NCBI RefSeq assembly: GCF_000245735.1
Contig: NZ_AHTH01000005.1
Location: 434,001 to 498,000, forward strand
Direction of reading: 5' to 3'
Length of the DNA: 64,000 nucleotides
Source: Alishewanella jeotgali KCTC 22429
GTDB lineage: Bacteria; Pseudomonadota; Gammaproteobacteria; Enterobacterales; Alteromonadaceae
Position numbers and translations under genes: made by a program. A model generated the notes under the pieces. The model did no database searches, was not told where the DNA came from, and saw only the letters and a list, made by a program, of their open reading frames with translations. Below, piece after piece: positions 31,547 through 48,283 of the stretch; the first letter of the stretch is position 1; every line of letters begins with the position of its first letter.

Positions 31547-32011
31547 TCACCACAGATAACGCACACTACGGATATTTTGTCTTGGTTGCGTATGTTGAAG
31601 TGTCGCAAAAACTTCAGCGAAATTCAGCTCAAGTTCTGTTACGTAAGTGTCGTCTACCGCGTAACTTTTAACGACTCTGGCACCACGGATTACGCCCTGA
31701 ACCGACGCCTCCAAAACATCATTTTGCGCAATCATCGCACTGACTGTATTTTTGCTGTCAATTCTTTGACCATACACACGCTCAGCCAACTCACGATAGG
31801 CCTCTAGCTTTGAAGCCCGCATCGCCAACAACATGCGTTGGGTTGGATCCGTAGCTTGTTGCGCGGAAATGGGCGCGGCCCCCAGGGCTGTCAGCACTGG
31901 AAAACTTACTGGTGTTTCCTGTTGATATTCAATATGCCGGTCCGCAAACTGACTACAGCCAGTCAGTACGCCACACAGTGTTACTACCAAGCTTATGTTT
32001 CTCATCATCAT
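31547..32011 (-). CDS. flgP: FlgP-like outer-membrane lipoprotein
   Basis: This 154-residue lipoprotein has the lipobox L-T-G-C in NISLVVTLCGVLTGCSQ and an LPP20/FlgP-type body: MRASKLEAYRELAERVYGQRIDSKNTVSAMIAQNDVLEASVQGVIRGARVV. In Vibrio, FlgP is needed for polar-flagellum motility and outer-membrane integrity at the basal body. The start could be any of three consecutive ATGs, with CAGGG upstream favouring the later ones. It is divergent from flgT and has a perfect sigma-54 promoter, which supports a flagellar role. Confidence 0.88.
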   Translation of the reverse strand: MMMRNISLVVTLCGVLTGCSQFADRHIEYQQETPVSFPVLTALGAAPISAQQATDPTQRMLLAMRASKLEAYRELAERVYGQRIDSKNTVSAMIAQNDVLEASVQGVIRGARVVKSYAVDDTYVTELELNFAEVFATLQHTQPRQNIRSVRYLW

Positions 32012-32081: not shown

Positions 32082-32097
32082 AGCAAAATAAGTGCCA
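32082..32097 (-). promoter_or_regulatory. Sigma-54 promoter of flgP-like gene
   Basis: The minus strand reads TGGCACTTATTTTGCT, a near-perfect -24/-12 element, about 70 bases before the start. Confidence 0.92.
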
Positions 32098-32182: not shown

Positions 32183-33313
32183 ATGATAAAGAGCTTAGCG
32201 ACAGTGTTGCTTTCTAGTCTAATGCTGTGTTGGACTCAGCAGGTTAATGCCGGATGGTACGAGGCGACAGGTCAGGCACCTATTGAAAAGGGTAACCTGA
32301 ATGCTGCTCGTCACGCAGCAATTGAAGATGCCCTACAAAGAGCCAGTTTATTTGCCGGTGCCAGACTGCAAAGTGAACAACAGGTTATTCAGGGAATTTT
32401 ACAGCATAGCCAAATTACCCTAAGTAGTGCGGCAGAGTTAAAACAAGTTCAACTGCTGTCGGAGAGTCATAGTCAACATCAAGTAACGGTTACACTGCGT
32501 GCTCATATCATTGCAGAGGCCTCTAATTGCCGCAACGACTTACGTAATCCGCTGCACCTAAGCACTATCCATCTTGAAGCCCGACGTGATGCAATCTATG
32601 GCCAGCTATTTCAATTGGGTGAACACAGTACCCGCCAGCTTAACCGTCACTTGCGTGATTTCGCACCCGGGTTGTTGCTTAGTCCTGAGGTACAACAATT
32701 GCAGCCACAGCAGCTTACCATCGAAGTGGCAGATGCACTTTTCGGCCAAGGACAACAGTTTATCGTTCTGGCCAGTATTACTGACTTATCCTTGGGCCAG
32801 AAACTTAGTAAATTCTGGCAGAGCGAGGCATTTGAGCGCTTCTTTGCACTCGAACTCTGGCTATATGATACCTTTGAGCGAAGATTCCGCTTTCAGCAGG
32901 AGTATCGAACAGCCAGTCACTGGACAGAATCCCGCCCCTCACCGGCTAGTCATAGTATGGCTTTCTGGCAATTGCCATATGGTCAGAAAATCGATCAGGT
33001 TTTAAAAGCAGCTGCACTGGACATTCAACAACAACTACAATGCCAACCCTTACTTACACAAATAAGGCAAGTACGACAACAACAAATACAGCTCGGCTTA
33101 GGTGCGGTACATGGCTTAAAAGTAGGTGACAAGGTAAAATTGATACAAGTCCAGCGCGACCAGCATGACAGCCGGATCCGCCGGCTAGTACACAGCCCAA
33201 TTGAGTTAACTATTACAGAAACAACCGCCGATGGCGCCTGGGCTGCCTCAGCATCCCAACAACTGCTTAATCATATTCAGGTCGGTGATATCGTCAGTCT
33301 AGCAGCAAACTAA
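32183..33313 (+). CDS. flgT: Flagellar H-ring protein FlgT
   Basis: FlgT forms the H ring around the LP ring in Vibrio and stabilises the stator. The 376-residue protein has a signal peptide (TVLLSSLMLCWTQQVNA), then GWYEATGQAPIEKGNLNAARHAAIEDALQRASLFAGARL, the FlgT N-terminal pattern, and a C-terminal beta-rich domain (LGLGAVHGLKVGDKVKLIQ). Position between flgP-type and flgO-type genes supports the call. Confidence 0.92.
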   Translation: MIKSLATVLLSSLMLCWTQQVNAGWYEATGQAPIEKGNLNAARHAAIEDALQRASLFAGARLQSEQQVIQGILQHSQITLSSAAELKQVQLLSESHSQHQVTVTLRAHIIAEASNCRNDLRNPLHLSTIHLEARRDAIYGQLFQLGEHSTRQLNRHLRDFAPGLLLSPEVQQLQPQQLTIEVADALFGQGQQFIVLASITDLSLGQKLSKFWQSEAFERFFALELWLYDTFERRFRFQQEYRTASHWTESRPSPASHSMAFWQLPYGQKIDQVLKAAALDIQQQLQCQPLLTQIRQVRQQQIQLGLGAVHGLKVGDKVKLIQVQRDQHDSRIRRLVHSPIELTITETTADGAWAASASQQLLNHIQVGDIVSLAAN

Positions 33314-33317
33314 CCAC

Positions 33318-33350
33318 AGACTGAAAAGATTCACATAATCTTTTCAGTCT
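33318..33350 (+). terminator. Hairpin after flgT
   Basis: A perfect 14-base-pair stem with a 5-base loop (CACAT) starts 4 bases after the flgT stop. It lacks a T-run (next bases GTTAGACTCT), so it may be an intrinsic terminator of weak type or a processing and stability hairpin before the tRNA. Confidence 0.6.
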
Positions 33351-33368
33351 GTTAGACTCTGTGCCGCC

Positions 33369-33443
33369 CGCCCCATAGTTAAATGGATATAACGGCCCCC
33401 TCCTAAGGGGCAGTTACAGGTTCGATTCCTGTTGGGGCGGCCA
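33369..33443 (+). tRNA. tRNA-Arg (anticodon CCT)
   Basis: The 75-base sequence folds as a cloverleaf: acceptor CGCCCCA/TGGGGCG, discriminator G and encoded CCA; D-arm GTTAAATGGATATAAC; anticodon stem GCCCC/GGGGC with loop CTCCTAA, so the anticodon is CCT; T-arm ACAGG-TTCGATT-CCTGT. It reads the rare AGG codon. It is a single tRNA between flagellar genes, with no integrase or repeat at its 3' end in the window. Confidence 0.97.
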
Positions 33444-33447
33444 TGTC

Positions 33448-34131
33448 CTAGCGCAGTATTTGCGGATACAGCGAGCTAACCACAAAATGTGGGATCAACT
33501 GCTGTGAACTGGCGGCAACCACCTTGGTGCGAAAGTTAATCACTCTGGCATTCACCATAATACCTCTTGGGGTAAATACCATAGTTCCTGATAACACATA
33601 ATCAATTTGCTGCATCATATCGAGCTGGTTGTGCTGCCGGCTAAAGACAAAATCACCGCTCGGTGTCACCTGAATATCGCGGGTGGTTTTAAAATCGACA
33701 ACCTGGATACCGAACTGCTGGAACTGATGAATAAAGGCTTCTGCCAGCTGGTTACCAATAATATTGGTGCGGTTTAACTCACTGTCTAAATCAACAAAGG
33801 ATGCCACGGCCACGCGGGATTCGACCGGGAAATAATGAAAGGTTTCAACCAGCTGCATCGCCATCTGCGCCACATAGTCATTAAGCTGCTTATTAGCATT
33901 TAAACTGGTGACATACTGGTGTGGCACCATCCAGCCATTCTGCCGCAGCGGGCTGGCGGCCTGACCAGAAGATACCGGCATAACCCGGTCGGCAGGCGCC
34001 TGGTCCTGTACCTGGCGGCGGACCTCAGTCCGGCAATTGCCTTTGCTATCACACTCCGTTCTTTGGTAACTGTAACAGCCGCTTAGCAAGACGGCACCGG
34101 CAAGCAATGCCAGATAGTTGCTTTTCATCAT
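33448..34131 (-). CDS. FlgO-family outer-membrane lipoprotein (third copy)
   Basis: This 227-residue lipoprotein has lipobox L-S-G-C in LLAGAVLLSGCYSY and a FlgO-type domain with RVAVASFVDLDSELNRTNIIGNQLAEAFIHQFQQFGIQVVDFKTTRDIQVTPSGDFVFSR and YVLSGTMVFTPRGIMVNARVINF. FlgO in Vibrio is an outer-membrane protein needed for normal motility. It has its own sigma-28 promoter, unlike the two copies upstream. It ends 5 bases from the tRNA on the opposite strand. Confidence 0.88.
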   Translation of the reverse strand: MMKSNYLALLAGAVLLSGCYSYQRTECDSKGNCRTEVRRQVQDQAPADRVMPVSSGQAASPLRQNGWMVPHQYVTSLNANKQLNDYVAQMAMQLVETFHYFPVESRVAVASFVDLDSELNRTNIIGNQLAEAFIHQFQQFGIQVVDFKTTRDIQVTPSGDFVFSRQHNQLDMMQQIDYVLSGTMVFTPRGIMVNARVINFRTKVVAASSQQLIPHFVVSSLYPQILR

Positions 34132-34165
34132 ACGCTCCTGACCCCAGATTTAGGCTAACCTCTAC

Positions 34166-34193
34166 TTGTCGGCGGCCTTGGCTTAAACTTTAG
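34166..34193 (-). promoter_or_regulatory. Sigma-28 promoter of third FlgO-like gene
   Basis: The minus strand reads CTAAAG, 15 bases, then GCCGACAA, one base off the FliA -10 consensus, about 35 bases before the gene. Confidence 0.87.
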
Positions 34194-34257
34194 CAAAGCC
34201 TCAGAAAAATAACGAGGTTTGTACGGAGCATATTGATGTTAACCGCTAAGATTGTGT

Positions 34258-34281
34258 ATTGCCGGGTACAACACCGGCAAT
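34258..34281 (-). terminator. Hairpin after second FlgO-like gene
   Basis: An 8-base-pair stem (ATTGCCGG/CCGGCAAT) with an 8-base loop overlaps the last base of the stop codon. The T-run is weak, so read-through toward the third copy is possible. Confidence 0.5.
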
Positions 34282-34940
34282 CAACCCTGTTTCAGTTTTA
34301 GACTGTTGTCCTGGCGTTGTTGCAGAATAGCGTTATAAACCGCCGCCGGCACAAAGGTACGAGCCGCCGATACCACCCTTTTATTGTCGATCTGGATTAA
34401 TCTGGCGTTTAACATCACTCCAGCCTGATGCCGCGTTACAGTACCGGTAACCACGTATTTGATCGGTAACTCTGCCGATAACTCGCTAAAATCACGACTC
34501 AGTACAAAGTCACCTTGCTCCGTCACCCGGATATAATCGGTGACTTTAAAATCCAGTACCGGCACGCCAAACAGATGCAAGTCATAGATAATGGCTTCGC
34601 TCAGGTGATTGGTAAATACCGAGCCGTGCTGCAGATCTGAGTCCAGAAATGCCAGATCCGTCACCGCAACCATGGCTTGCTCTTCTACCCGGTGATGATT
34701 TGCCATCAAATCATGCACCAGATTACGAGCATAATGGTCCAGCGTGATAACTGGGGTTTGTCGCTGCTGCGTCGGGGCCGACTCAACCGCGAACGCCTGC
34801 TGCTGTAAAATACGCTCTTGCCGTGCCAGGTCGCCGCGCATCGACACCGCGTTTTCTGGCACTACCTTGGGTTGTGCCGCTTGCTGGGCACAGCCGGATA
34901 ACGCCAATAAGATGGCTACACTGACCGCCGATTTATTCAT
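34281..34940 (-). CDS. FlgO-family outer-membrane lipoprotein (second copy)
   Basis: This 219-residue lipoprotein has lipobox L-S-G-C in SVAILLALSGCAQQ, and the same FlgO-type core as its neighbours: LVHDLMANHHRVEEQAMVAVTDLAFLDSDL, then NHLSEAIIYDLHLFGVPVLDFKVTDYIRVTEQGDFVLSRD, and YVVTGTVTRHQAGVMLNARLIQI. It overlaps the first copy by four bases (ATGA), so the two are translated together from the sigma-54 promoter upstream. Confidence 0.88.
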   Translation of the reverse strand: MNKSAVSVAILLALSGCAQQAAQPKVVPENAVSMRGDLARQERILQQQAFAVESAPTQQRQTPVITLDHYARNLVHDLMANHHRVEEQAMVAVTDLAFLDSDLQHGSVFTNHLSEAIIYDLHLFGVPVLDFKVTDYIRVTEQGDFVLSRDFSELSAELPIKYVVTGTVTRHQAGVMLNARLIQIDNKRVVSAARTFVPAAVYNAILQQRQDNSLKLKQG

Positions 34941-35560
34941 GGCCGTTCTCCAATTCGATCACTCCGATATAAAAAATTGCCTCTTTTCAGCATCTTCTCC
35001 GCACTCCACAACACATTATCCGGCACATAGTCGGTGGCCGCAGCCAGCACCTGCTGACTTTGGATATCAATCAGTCTGGCATTGACAATCCAGCCATCCT
35101 CCTGCGGTACAAAGGTACCACTGAGTAATACCCGGGCTTGCTGTTGTTGCTGTAGCTCGTGCAATAAGCGGGAAAAGGCTTGTTCATGATCCTGTTGCAG
35201 TAGTACTGCAGCACGTAACCGGATATCGACGACTTCATAGCCGCGCTGTACCGCTTCGGTGAGTAAGCTTTCCGCCAGCTGATTGGCTAAATCCGTTTGC
35301 TCCGTACCAGCATTGACCAGTGACAATTGCCGCACCGGTACAAAACTACTGATGGCAATTTTATGCCGCAACTGCGGTTGTTGTCCGGCAGGCGTTTGAA
35401 AAAGCTGTTCCGCCAGACGCTGAGTATAAAATCCCAGTGGCTGTGGGCTTAAGCCAACGGCAGAGACCTGACGAACCGGCATCGACACTGTCGGTTCAGG
35501 TTGCTGATGCGCGCAGCTGGCAAGCAATGCCACTAGCGGCAGGCCAAGACACTTGTTCAT
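34937..35560 (-). CDS. FlgO-family outer-membrane lipoprotein (first copy)
   Basis: From the ATG at 35560 this is a 207-residue lipoprotein with lipobox L-A-S-C (CLGLPLVALLASCAHQ). The FlgO-type core is present but most divergent of the three: KIAISSFVPVRQLSLVNAGTEQTDLANQLAESLLTEAVQRGYEVVDIRL and RVLLSGTFVPQEDGWIVNARLIDI. The start has AGAGGTG 5 bases upstream; the frame is open 18 codons further but that part overlaps the sigma-54 promoter. It is the leading gene of a two-gene unit. Confidence 0.87.
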   Translation of the reverse strand: MNKCLGLPLVALLASCAHQQPEPTVSMPVRQVSAVGLSPQPLGFYTQRLAEQLFQTPAGQQPQLRHKIAISSFVPVRQLSLVNAGTEQTDLANQLAESLLTEAVQRGYEVVDIRLRAAVLLQQDHEQAFSRLLHELQQQQQARVLLSGTFVPQEDGWIVNARLIDIQSQQVLAAATDYVPDNVLWSAEKMLKRGNFLYRSDRIGERP

Positions 35561-44135: not shown

Positions 44136-46721
44136 TTACTTACTGCTGACCACCCAACGCCCATTTTCATACCAGGCCGACCAGGCTGTGGCTTTACCAT
44201 TCTGCTCCGTCATCACATATTGCTGTTTGGTCTTGCGACTATAACGCACAATCGCAGGGTTACCCTGTGGATCCTGCTCCGGCGCTTCGGCCAGATAGTG
44301 GAACTTCGGCGATAGCCGGTCTTTAAAGCGTTTTAACTCGCTGACCAGAGGTGCCCGGGTTTCGCGGGATTTCGGAAAATTCGCCGCCGCCAGAAACACC
44401 CCCGAGGCGCCATCACGCAACACAAAGTAGGTATCTGACTTTTCACATTTCAGTTCCGGCAGATGCACCGGATCTTCTTTTGGCGGTGCCGCTTCGCCGC
44501 TACGTAACAGCTTACGGGTATTTTTACATTCACTGTTGGTGCAACCAAAATACTTACCAAAGCGGCCGGATTTCAGCTGCATCTGAGCACCGCATTTATC
44601 ACACTCGATCTCTGGCCCTTCATAACCTTTCAGTTTAAAGGCCCCTTGTTCGACCTGATAACCATCACACTGCGGGTTATTACCACAGACGTGTAGCTTC
44701 CGGTGCTCATCCAGCAGATAAGAATCCATTGCCGTGCCACATTTTTGACAACGTTTTTTCTGCCGCAGCGCTTCGGTTTCCAGCTCGTCATCAGCCACTA
44801 ACACCGCCTCTTCACCCGACACCAGGTTCATGGTGGTGGTACAGCGCTCTTTTGGCGGTAAGTTATAGCCTGAGCAACCGAGAAATACCCCGGTAGAGGC
44901 GGTACGGATCCCCATCTGCCTGCCACAGGTTGGACAGGCGATATCGGTTAATACAAACTGATTCACCCGCATACCACCGAGCTCCGGCTCCTGCTCAGCG
45001 GTCTTTAATTTTGCGTTAAAGCCCTGATAGAACTGGTCCAGTTCTTTACGCCAATCTAATTGCCCTTTTGCAATATCATCGAGCTTCAGCTCCATATTGG
45101 CGGTAAAATCATAATTCATCAGATCATCAAAGTTTTCTACCAGACGGTCGGTAACGATTTCTCCCATTTTCTCGGCGTAGAAACGCTTGTTGTCAACCCG
45201 CACATAGCCGCGCTCCTGAATGGTAGAGATGATAGCAGCATAGGTCGACGGCCGGCCGATGCCCCGTTTCTCTAACTCTTTAACAAGACTGGCTTCGCTA
45301 AAACGGGCCGGCGGCTTGGTAAAATGTTGTGCCGCATGCAAATCAACCAGCGCCAGACTCTCTCCGGCTTTAACATCCGGCAATTCCAGCTCTTCTTCGC
45401 CTTTGCGCTTTACCGCCGGTTGTACCCGGGTCCAACCGTCGAAGCGCAATACCCGGCCTTTGGCTTTTAACTCAAAATCCGCGGCTGCGACAGTGATATT
45501 GGTTACATCGTACTGCGCTGCTGGCATCTGACAGGCAACAAATTGACGCCAAATCAGCTCATAGAGCTTTTTCGCATCGGCTTCCATATCGCCAAGTGCT
45601 GAAGCCAGAACAGACACATCTGATGGCCTTACGGCTTCGTGCGCTTCCTGGGCATTGGCTTTGCTACCGTAACTTACCGGCTCTGCCGGCAGATAGGCGG
45701 CGCCAAATTGTTTTGCAATATAATCACGGCAGCTGGATACCGCTTCCGCACTTAAATTGGTGGAGTCAGTACGCATATAGGTAATGTGGCCAGCTTCATA
45801 TAAACGCTGCGCCAACATCATGGTTTTCTTCACGCCATAACCCAAACGGGTACTGGCTGCCTGCTGTAGCGTCGAGGTAATAAAGGGCGCCTGCGGTTTG
45901 CTGCTACTGGGCTTATCTTCCCGTTCCAGCACCTGATAGCTGGCCTGCCGTAATATCCCAAGTGCGGCATCGGCCTGGGCTTTATTAACCGGATTAAAAG
46001 CTTTGCCGCCTTGTTTGACTACTTCCAGCGGCAGTGCCTGCCTTGCCTGGGTCAGTGTATCGGCATCAATACTCCAATACTCTTCGGGCACAAAGGCTTT
46101 AATTTCCCGCTCCCGCTCGACTACCAGGCGTACCGCTACAGACTGCACCCGCCCCGCAGACAGGCCACGGGCGACTTTTTTCCACAGCAGCGGCGACACC
46201 ATAAAGCCAACCACCCGGTCCAGAAAACGTCGCGCTTGCTGCGCATCAACCTGATCCAGGTTCAACTCACCCGGCTGTTCAAACGCCTGGGTAATAGCAT
46301 TTTTGGTGATTTCGTTAAATACCACCCGCTTAAATTTTTCAGGCGTACCGCCGATCACTTCGCGCAAATGCCAGGCAATGGCTTCTCCTTCACGGTCTAA
46401 GTCGGTTGCCAGATAAACGGTATCCGCCTTTTCTGCCAGCGCCTTGAGCTCTTTAACGACTTTTTCTTTGCCCGCGAGAATTTCATAACGCGCTTTCCAA
46501 CCGTGCTCGGGATCAATGCCCATCCGATCAACCAGCGCCTGATATTCTTTCTCGGCTTTACTTAAGCTTTTATCGGCGCTTTTGGCCTTGTCTTTACTGC
46601 TGCTACTGGGTAAATCCCGGATATGCCCGACACTGGATTTCACGACAAAGTCGTTACCCAGATACTTATTTATCGTTTTTGCCTTAGCCGGTGATTCAAC
46701 TATTACCAGTGATTTTGCCAT
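44136..46721 (-). CDS. topA: DNA topoisomerase I
   Basis: TopA relaxes negative supercoils. From [22 protein letters not shown] the protein is 861 residues, close to E. coli (865). It has the Toprim motif with [16 protein letters not shown], the active-site Tyr in [13 protein letters not shown], and three C-terminal zinc ribbons starting [18 protein letters not shown] and CDKCGAQMQ. The frame is open 102 codons further upstream, but that stretch has no family similarity and lies in the astB divergent gap, so I reject it. Confidence 0.97.
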
Positions 46722-46942
46722 TTTTAATCCAAAGATCCTTAGCATTTGGCCGTAAACGGCGCCCCTTTTTAAACGTATATCCGCAAACCGCTGTTGTGAC
46801 AAGTGCTCAAACTGATTATTATGCCTGTTGGCTGGTTTTTTCGCTGAATCGACCAGTCTCTGACCATAACAAAATGAAGCACATGATCCCGCGACCGTAA
46901 AAAAAACAAAAACAGCGTCGCCACAAATAAGGATAAAACTTA

Positions 46943-48283
46943 ATGCAAGCTTATGAAGCCAATTTCGACGGCCTGGTTGGGCCGACGCACAACTATGCCG
47001 GTTTATCAGTAGGCAATGTTGCCTCACTAAACAATGCCCGTAATACCTCCAGCCCGAAACAAGCCGCCAAACAAGGACTGCAGAAAATGAAAGCCCTGCA
47101 TGACCTTGGCATGGTACAAGGCGTGTTAGCGCCGCAGGAGCGGCCTGACATTGCCGCGCTGCGCCGGCTGGGTTTTACTGGCTCTGATAACGAGGTTATT
47201 ACCCAGGCGGCCAAACAGGCGCCGGAAGTTTACCGGGCGGTCTGCTCGGCGTCCAGTATGTGGACCGCCAATGCAGCGACAGTCTCACCCAGTGCCGATA
47301 CCGCTGACGGTAAAGTACACTTTACTCCGGCTAACCTGACCAATAAATTTCACCGCTCGTTAGAGCCTGAGACAACAGGCCGGATTTTGCGCGCCATGTT
47401 CAGTGATCAGCGCCACTTCGCCCATCACCAACACTTACCAGATAACGATCACTTTGGCGATGAAGGCGCTGCTAACCATACCCGCCTGTGCAGTGATTAC
47501 GCCAAAGCCGGCGTCGAAATCTTTGTTTATGGCCGTCACGCCTTTGATAGCAGTAAGCCGGCACCGTCGAAATATCCAGCGCGGCAACCCCTGGAAGCCT
47601 GTCAGGCCGTCGCCCGCTTACATGGTTTAAGTGAGCATGGCACCGTCTATTTACAACAAAATCCAGCGGTAATTGATCAGGGCGTGTTCCACAACGATGT
47701 TATCGCTGTGGGCAACCGCAACGTGCTGTTTTACCATCAACAGGCCTTTTTGGATACGACACAAAAACTGTCTGAGATCCGGCGTAAATTTGGCGACGAC
47801 AGCAGCCTGCACTTTATTGAAGTGCCGGATCAGCAAGTGTCGGTTGCCGATGCGGTTAATACCTACTTATTTAATACCCAGCTGATCAATTTACCCAACG
47901 GCGAGATGGTGATTATCGCGCCAACCGAATGTCAGGAACATGCCGGTGTACACCGTTATCTGACCGAGTTATGCCAACAGGATACCCCCATTCGCCAGGT
48001 AAAATACTTTGATGTTAAACAAAGCATGCGTAATGGCGGTGGTCCAGCCTGTCTGCGGTTAAGAGTGGTCCTGAACGAGCAGGAGCGCCAGGCCGTTAAC
48101 CCTGCTGTGCTGATGAATGAGCAGCTATTTGCCACGCTAAATAGCTGGGTTGATAAGCATTATCGCGACCAGTTAAGCGAAGCGGATTTGGCGGACCCAC
48201 AGTTAATGATTGAGTCCCGCACCGCTTTAGATGAGCTGACGCAAATTCTGAAACTGGGGTCGGTATATAGCTTCCAGCGTTAA
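46943..48283 (+). CDS. astB: N-succinylarginine dihydrolase
   Basis: AstB is the second enzyme of the arginine succinyltransferase pathway and turns N2-succinylarginine into succinylornithine, ammonia and CO2. The 446-residue protein begins [28 protein letters not shown], then [21 protein letters not shown]-like [25 protein letters not shown], and near the end [16 protein letters not shown] with the catalytic Cys. The rest of the ast pathway is not in the window. Confidence 0.97.

Follow-up and report, generated by a model that had tools for sequence, protein, structure and literature searches.

Three tandem FlgO-family lipoprotein genes with candidate sigma-54 and sigma-28 promoters in the flagellar cluster of Alishewanella jeotgali

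In this article, I will ask why a flagellar gene cluster should carry three genes for FlgO-family lipoproteins in a row, and whether the promoter-like sites that precede them could bring the products into one outer-membrane structure at different times. The locus lies in Alishewanella jeotgali KCTC 22429, in a stretch of 64,000 nucleotides (positions 434,001 to 498,000 of contig NZ_AHTH01000005.1) that I call the window and whose numbering is used throughout. The features that the argument needs are these, A, B and C being the three FlgO copies.

31547..32011, minus strand: flgP (PF02169), the sole LPP20-family match in the genome, with solved FlgP relatives
32082..32097, minus strand: sigma-54-like site TGGCACTTATTTTGCT before flgP, 11 of 12 consensus letters
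32183..33313, plus strand: flgT, with FlgT_N, FlgT_M and FlgT_C domains and solved FlgT relatives 8z5n and 3w1e
33369..33443: tRNA-Arg (CCT), inside the flagellar cluster with flgT on one side and C on the other
33448..34131, minus strand: FlgO copy C, predicted lipoprotein of 227 aa, PF17680 at 146.5 bits, with its own promoter-like site
34166..34192, minus strand: sigma-28-like site TAAAGTTT-N11-GCCGACAA before C, 15 of 16 consensus letters
34259..34280, minus strand: short hairpin directly 3' of the B stop, without a T run, folding at -11.3 kcal/mol (z -1.7), no terminator call
34281..34940, minus strand: FlgO copy B, predicted lipoprotein of 219 aa, PF17680 at 138.9 bits
34937..35560, minus strand: FlgO copy A, first gene of the triple, predicted lipoprotein of 207 aa, PF17680 at 122.7 bits
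35593..35608, minus strand: sigma-54-like site TGGCCTGCTTTTTGCT before A, 10 of 12 consensus letters

A first-pass annotation had described three tandem, divergent FlgO-family lipoproteins with the first two coupled by ATGA, and this description holds: coordinates and strand are correct, the PF17680 scores (122.7-146.5 bits) lie far above the Pfam cut-off of 22.6 bits, the copies are 26-34% identical in pairwise comparison, and the stop of A (34937) and the start of B (34940) overlap by 4 nt. Each protein has a lipobox-type N-terminus, with the cysteine at residue 16 (A), 17 (B) or 19 (C), from which lipidation is predicted, and this cysteine is kept in at least 80% of the rows in each of groups A, B and C and in the Colwellia/f21 set. 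Solved FlgO (9yfg/9yds) is matched in sequence by A (E 2e-14), by B (E 3e-25) and best of all by C (E 3e-30), and a PF17680 search of the organism's own 3.83 Mb draft genome gave no FlgO match beyond these three. Also, C has two more cysteines just after that of the lipobox (CDSKGNC, within residues 19-33, window 34033-34077), where a disulphide is possible.

The same annotation had placed FlgP and FlgT next door, and domain matches bear this out in what is a polar flagellar cluster, where the triple is also adjoined by tRNA-Arg, flgAMN and a pair of genes that I take to be thyA and lgt. In the window flgP stands alone and the three flgO genes lie beyond flgT, so the arrangement with one flgO directly before flgP (the Vibrio-type flgOP operon) is absent. 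The usual place of a single FlgO elsewhere is the interval between flgT and flgP; across 19 triple-bearing loci with both genes labelled (L079, L082 and L083 among them repeat L035, L051 and L045), no FlgO of at least 90 aa was found there. The interval between flgT and tRNA-Arg holds a 16-pair stem-loop (33316-33352) that is terminator-like on the minus strand. FlgP was not multiplied in parallel with FlgO in this genome, which has one FlgP-family match, and a second flagellar system as the source of the extra copies was rejected on the marker flgH, of which there is also one match. FlgP was matched in 43 of 60 relatives, mostly once, and these counts are unreliable given the misses in FlgO-bearing genomes and the weak scores.

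Is the triplication then peculiar to this genome? It is not: among 31 genomes of the genus that were searched, 27 have three strong FlgO matches and four have two, and many relatives carry three copies as well. An order-wide draw of 394 genomes gave a FlgO match in 227, counted down to E 0.001 with some of them weak; the organism's own family, f1, has 32 matched genomes with at least three copies in 23, two in four and one in five (three listed f1 genomes lack a FlgO match), and of the matched genomes in other families 171/195 have one FlgO. The best 80 of 472 named loci found with a C-led alignment hold, within each retrieved stretch, three FlgO genes in 55 cases, four in one, two in one and one in 23, with triples in many Alteromonas and Pseudoalteromonas loci. 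A triple unique to this organism is thus ruled out by the genus, order-wide and named-locus counts alike. The nearest named genome by its A, B and C proteins is Alishewanella aestuarii (L079), with C 100% identical, and in genus genome G003 (L035) the identities to the window are 99.5% for A, 98.6% for B and 100% for C. Four of the genus genomes (G001, G008, G026, G028) show further weak FlgO-domain matches, which lie elsewhere than the FlgO cluster in ORFs about 270-750 aa long. The accompanying statement that Vibrio has one FlgO was checked on f21, which was treated as Vibrio-like since L077 resembles the FlgO chains of 9yfg; it is right for most of those genomes, although G132 and G409 have two matches.

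The annotation had proposed a phylogeny of the copies as a check, and this returns three orthologous groups in the fixed order A-B-C. In a tree of 71 rows, built from 16 chosen triple loci plus other families, the A clade (16 rows) has support 99/95 and the B clade (16 rows) 100/99, and the 16 C rows fall together on one side of a branch that is less well supported (78/97). The values of dN/dS are 0-0.14 in the pairs for which they could be computed, several pairs being saturated at synonymous sites, and the copies are under purifying selection where this is measurable. That A, B and C are anciently distinct, constrained copies is therefore supported by the sequences. A test of A+B+C as one clade neither established nor rejected that grouping (p-AU 0.174), and the triple may or may not have arisen by duplication within the clade. 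Multi-copy FlgO is itself old and common in the relatives, and what is newer here is that the three copies form orthologous groups and that they divide between sigma-54-like and sigma-28-like sites. The third copy may be accessory, as the four two-copy genus genomes (L050, L052, L057, L061) have A- and B-type genes only, according to a quick tree of 118 rows, and C diverges fast within the genus, with 35-40% identity to the window C in L033, L034, L040, L044 and L049. Two relatives have dispersed copies, yet keep all three types: in G032 (L064) A and B remain together, with C, a long branch in the tree, some 8 kb off, and in G034 (L066, L067) A is on a different contig from B and C, which are separated by 8.5 kb.

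Now considering the promoter-like sites, these were scored against sigma-54 and sigma-28 consensus strings that were not derived from these genomes and that I assume to apply. Sigma-54-like sites with at least 10 of 12 letters occurred at a mean of 6.9 in 20 shuffled windows, which makes TGGCCTGCTTTTTGCT weak by itself, and sigma-28-like sites with at least 15 of 16 letters occurred in none of them; by these counts the sigma-28 site stands out unaided, whereas the sigma-54 site needs cross-genome comparison. The other sigma-28-like sites in the window with at least 14 letters lie before two flagellins, before flgM and at 46331 on the plus strand, the last falling within an ORF (44136-47027) and probably being due to chance. 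Terminator prediction gave no T-rich candidate in the B-C interval of the window, which makes read-through from A-B into C possible, and the hairpin at 34259..34280 may or may not separate the two.

Across genomes, of the 27 triples in the genus 26 have a sigma-54-like site with at least 9 of 12 letters before gene 1, where 2.0 would be expected, and only one has such a site before gene 2; outside the genus it precedes gene 1 in 47 of 51 triples. When the 26 B-C intergenic regions of the genus that are at least 28 bp long are scanned with a spacer of 11 or 12, 23 have a sigma-28-like site with at least 12 of 16 letters before C, against an expectation of 0.26; spacer 11 alone gives 14 of 26 (0.17 expected), spacer 12 having been added after the misses were inspected, with the shuffles given equal freedom. 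The rows in all of these counts are related genomes and not independent events. Outside the genus, no sigma-28-like site was found before gene 3 in 51 triples, one hit among 52 having been dropped because that locus (L083) is the same DNA as genus locus L045. The B-C gap differs too: it measures 50-174 bp in all but one of the 27 genus triples and -8 to 20 bp in the 51 outside. Both sites that the annotation had named can be retained as candidate promoters, the one before the first two copies as kept in position in relatives and the one before the third as kept in position within the genus. A sigma-54-like site precedes the detached C gene in both L064 and L066, and loci whose retrieved stretch has only a C-type gene (L084-L090, L132, L145) have no clear site of either kind. 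In seven B-C regions of the genus (L033, L036, L040, L042, L054, L058, L060), a long inverted repeat pairs the -10 part of the sigma-28-like site (GCCGATAT) with the stretch just 5' of the C start; the repeat is absent from the window, the two regions that were folded gave -18.3 kcal/mol with z -5.4 (L036) and -12.5 with z -4.7 (L054), and such a repeat could act on the expression of C.

The timing of FlgO may differ well beyond this genus. In a survey of families, with thresholds of 9 of 12 letters for sigma-54 and 12 of 16 for sigma-28 and with loci picked from the listed matches and not at random, sigma-54-like sites were found in 7/7 loci of f2 and 9/12 of f21, and sigma-28-like sites in 11/11 of f11, 12/12 of f25 (L078 having both kinds), 2/2 of f10, 3/4 of f12 and 2/2 of f6 (L175 having both), with f15 mixed over three loci. 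In f20 the single copies are sigma-54-like (4/4) and the lone two-copy locus has one site of each kind; in f9, with nine loci of two copies and two of three, copy 1 is sigma-54-like in 10/11 and copy 2 sigma-28-like in 10/11, L167 having neither. Besides this genus, f9 and a single f20 locus thus divide their copies between the two kinds of site. Single loci of the Colwellia type have a sigma-54-like site with at least 9 letters in 5/15 and with at least 8 in 14/15 (0.7 expected). On this evidence single FlgO genes look dependent on sigma-54 in one set of families and on sigma-28 in another. The f11 loci (L178, L181-L190) and f25 loci (L078, L179, L191-L200) have a single FlgO with a sigma-28-like site of at least 13 of 16 letters in 23/23, and flgP lies behind FlgO in the three that were inspected (L078, L178, L179); the FlgO/FlgP pair may be late in both families.

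What structure could such proteins build? A and C were modelled with AlphaFold (pLDDT 79.7 and 75.5), and in a Foldseek comparison both models resemble LpoB, TolB, PelC and CsgG, a group of which some members form rings, the PelC dodecamer for instance; A also resembles FlgT (3w1e), HpaA is among the model matches too, and for both models one chain of 8z5n, the LPHT-ring entry, comes lower down. The TM-scores, which do not exceed 0.49 by query length, are modest, and 9yfg/9yds are absent from the best 50 rows for A or C, their presence in the searched library being uncertain. The solved FlgO chains (9yds, 9yfg, 9yh6, 9yh7) average 58 per entry, and FlgP chains average 58 in the same four entries, 52 in 9yec and 26 in 8z5n/8z60. 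These chain counts are consistent with a ring, and it is on them that this reading rests, since a literature search found no paper for 9yds/9yfg.

The explanation towards which I lean, though only gently, is that A, B and C serve as three specialised subunits in a single disc, the outer-membrane FlgO/FlgP disc (H-ring) that surrounds one polar-type flagellar motor, and that in this genus C is a late addition. A and B would be made with FlgP from sigma-54 promoters and enter the disc during assembly of the hook-basal body, and C would be made, like the flagellins, from a sigma-28 promoter and for that reason would join after hook completion and FlgM export, as an outer ring or by mixing in. I infer here that the candidate promoters are active, that all three proteins sit in one disc, in concentric or mixed placement, and that C arrives late. 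Of the enlarged structure with a late part that the annotation had suggested, an enlarged or differentiated FlgO disc is plausible because the copies are anciently distinct and constrained and because Arcobacter offers a precedent, and the two different promoter types are supported as well, each being kept in position; the late part does not extend to C as such. Judging from the sites, the late role of C is not general: outside the genus C follows B within -8 to +20 bp in triples that mostly have a sigma-54-like site before gene 1 and none of the sigma-28 kind before C, and the detached C genes are sigma-54-like.

Could three copies simply mean more of the same subunit, with the split promoters merely tuning its amount? 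A single FlgO suffices in many families, as the 171/195 matched genomes outside f1 illustrate, and 11 strongly conserved positions are common to A, B, C and the Colwellia/f21 set; however, identities of 26-34%, old orthologous groups kept apart in fixed order and group-specific residues (W185 and Y198 among those of A, H122 and H171 among those of B, with only two in C) argue against redundancy, and I regard this explanation as unlikely. It is quite improbable that C has left the motor disc to become, in this genus, a late envelope lipoprotein such as an LpoB-like factor or a surface ring part, its sigma-28 site reflecting use together with the filament. Such a departure would fit the resemblance to LpoB and HpaA, the fast change of C and its loss from four genus genomes, but the fold resemblance is common to A and so not specific to C, which keeps the FlgO core and is the best match of the three to solved FlgO.

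The site before C might also be unused, with C transcribed together with A-B from the sigma-54 promoter and its timing unchanged, and here the lack of a called T-rich terminator between B and C, and the tight A-B-C runs elsewhere, in which joint transcription is likely, weigh in favour. Set against these are the 15 of 16 letters in the window, the 23 of 26 genus regions and the widened B-C gap of the genus, and I would think this account very improbable.

Returning to specialised subunits of one disc, a bolder form can be put forward only tentatively and with more doubt than belief: an inner FlgO/FlgP disc made under sigma-54 would be followed after the hook by a distinct FlgO ring made under sigma-28, and FlgO would have shifted stage repeatedly in evolution, standing as a single late copy in whole families and being split across both stages in multi-copy lineages. 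Should the split be real, a disc whose ascribed H-ring role is to help the flagellum through the outer membrane (PMC7990780, in the part available) would be partly finished only after that crossing, and its early and late jobs could be separated by single deletions in one organism. The survey of promoters also suggests that the timing of Vibrio FlgO may not transfer to families with a sigma-28-like FlgO. Among the papers listed by a literature search that lacked most subscription journals, I saw neither several FlgO copies in Alteromonadales nor sigma-28 control of FlgO described; in the available parts of the Alteromonas and Pseudoalteromonas literature, one strain of A. macleodii is stated to encode flgT and flgO with no more said (PMC12838423), and FlgO appears in a reference only (PMC10634453).

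How, then, does this locus compare with known systems? The Vibrio FlgO of the flgOP operon and the H-ring, or basal disc, shares the Pfam family, the lipoprotein nature and the position beside flgP, flgT and flgAMN. From what is accessible of the source, it also shares a sigma-54 promoter, since V. cholerae flgO is a class III gene dependent on FlrBC/sigma-54 (PMC12607845), to which the sites with at least 9 of 12 letters in 9/12 f21 loci correspond; it differs in being a single gene between flgT and flgP, where the present locus has none, its three copies lying on the other side of flgT. Most cells of a V. fischeri flgO mutant are aflagellate, partly through polarity on flgP, in the accessible text of PMC3948606. 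The f9 loci, from another family of the order, share the sigma-54-like copy 1 and the sigma-28-like copy 2, and differ in the order flgO-flgP-flgO; their copy 2 is nearest B in the best tree, yet its placement with C, at a cost of 4.1 log units, is not excluded by the AU test (p-AU 0.3), and the f9 late copy may or may not have an independent origin. Nor do I equate f9 with Aeromonas, since flgAMN adjoin these genes in f9, whereas in Aeromonas hydrophila the polar flagellar regions do not include flgO, flgP or flgT, as the available part of PMC4960245 has it.

Arcobacter differs in having two copies, in that FlgP was not found and in the reported loss of RpoN and of FliA-FlgM (available parts of PMC9321776 and PMC5758724), for which reason a sigma-54/sigma-28 split is not to be expected there. 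It shares FlgO together with a potential paralogue, FlgO', in a likely operon, and an imaged motor with five to six concentric outer-membrane rings (same papers, same parts), and by analogy, drawn from the published descriptions, its FlgO/FlgO' pair is the nearest precedent for FlgO paralogues in a ringed motor.
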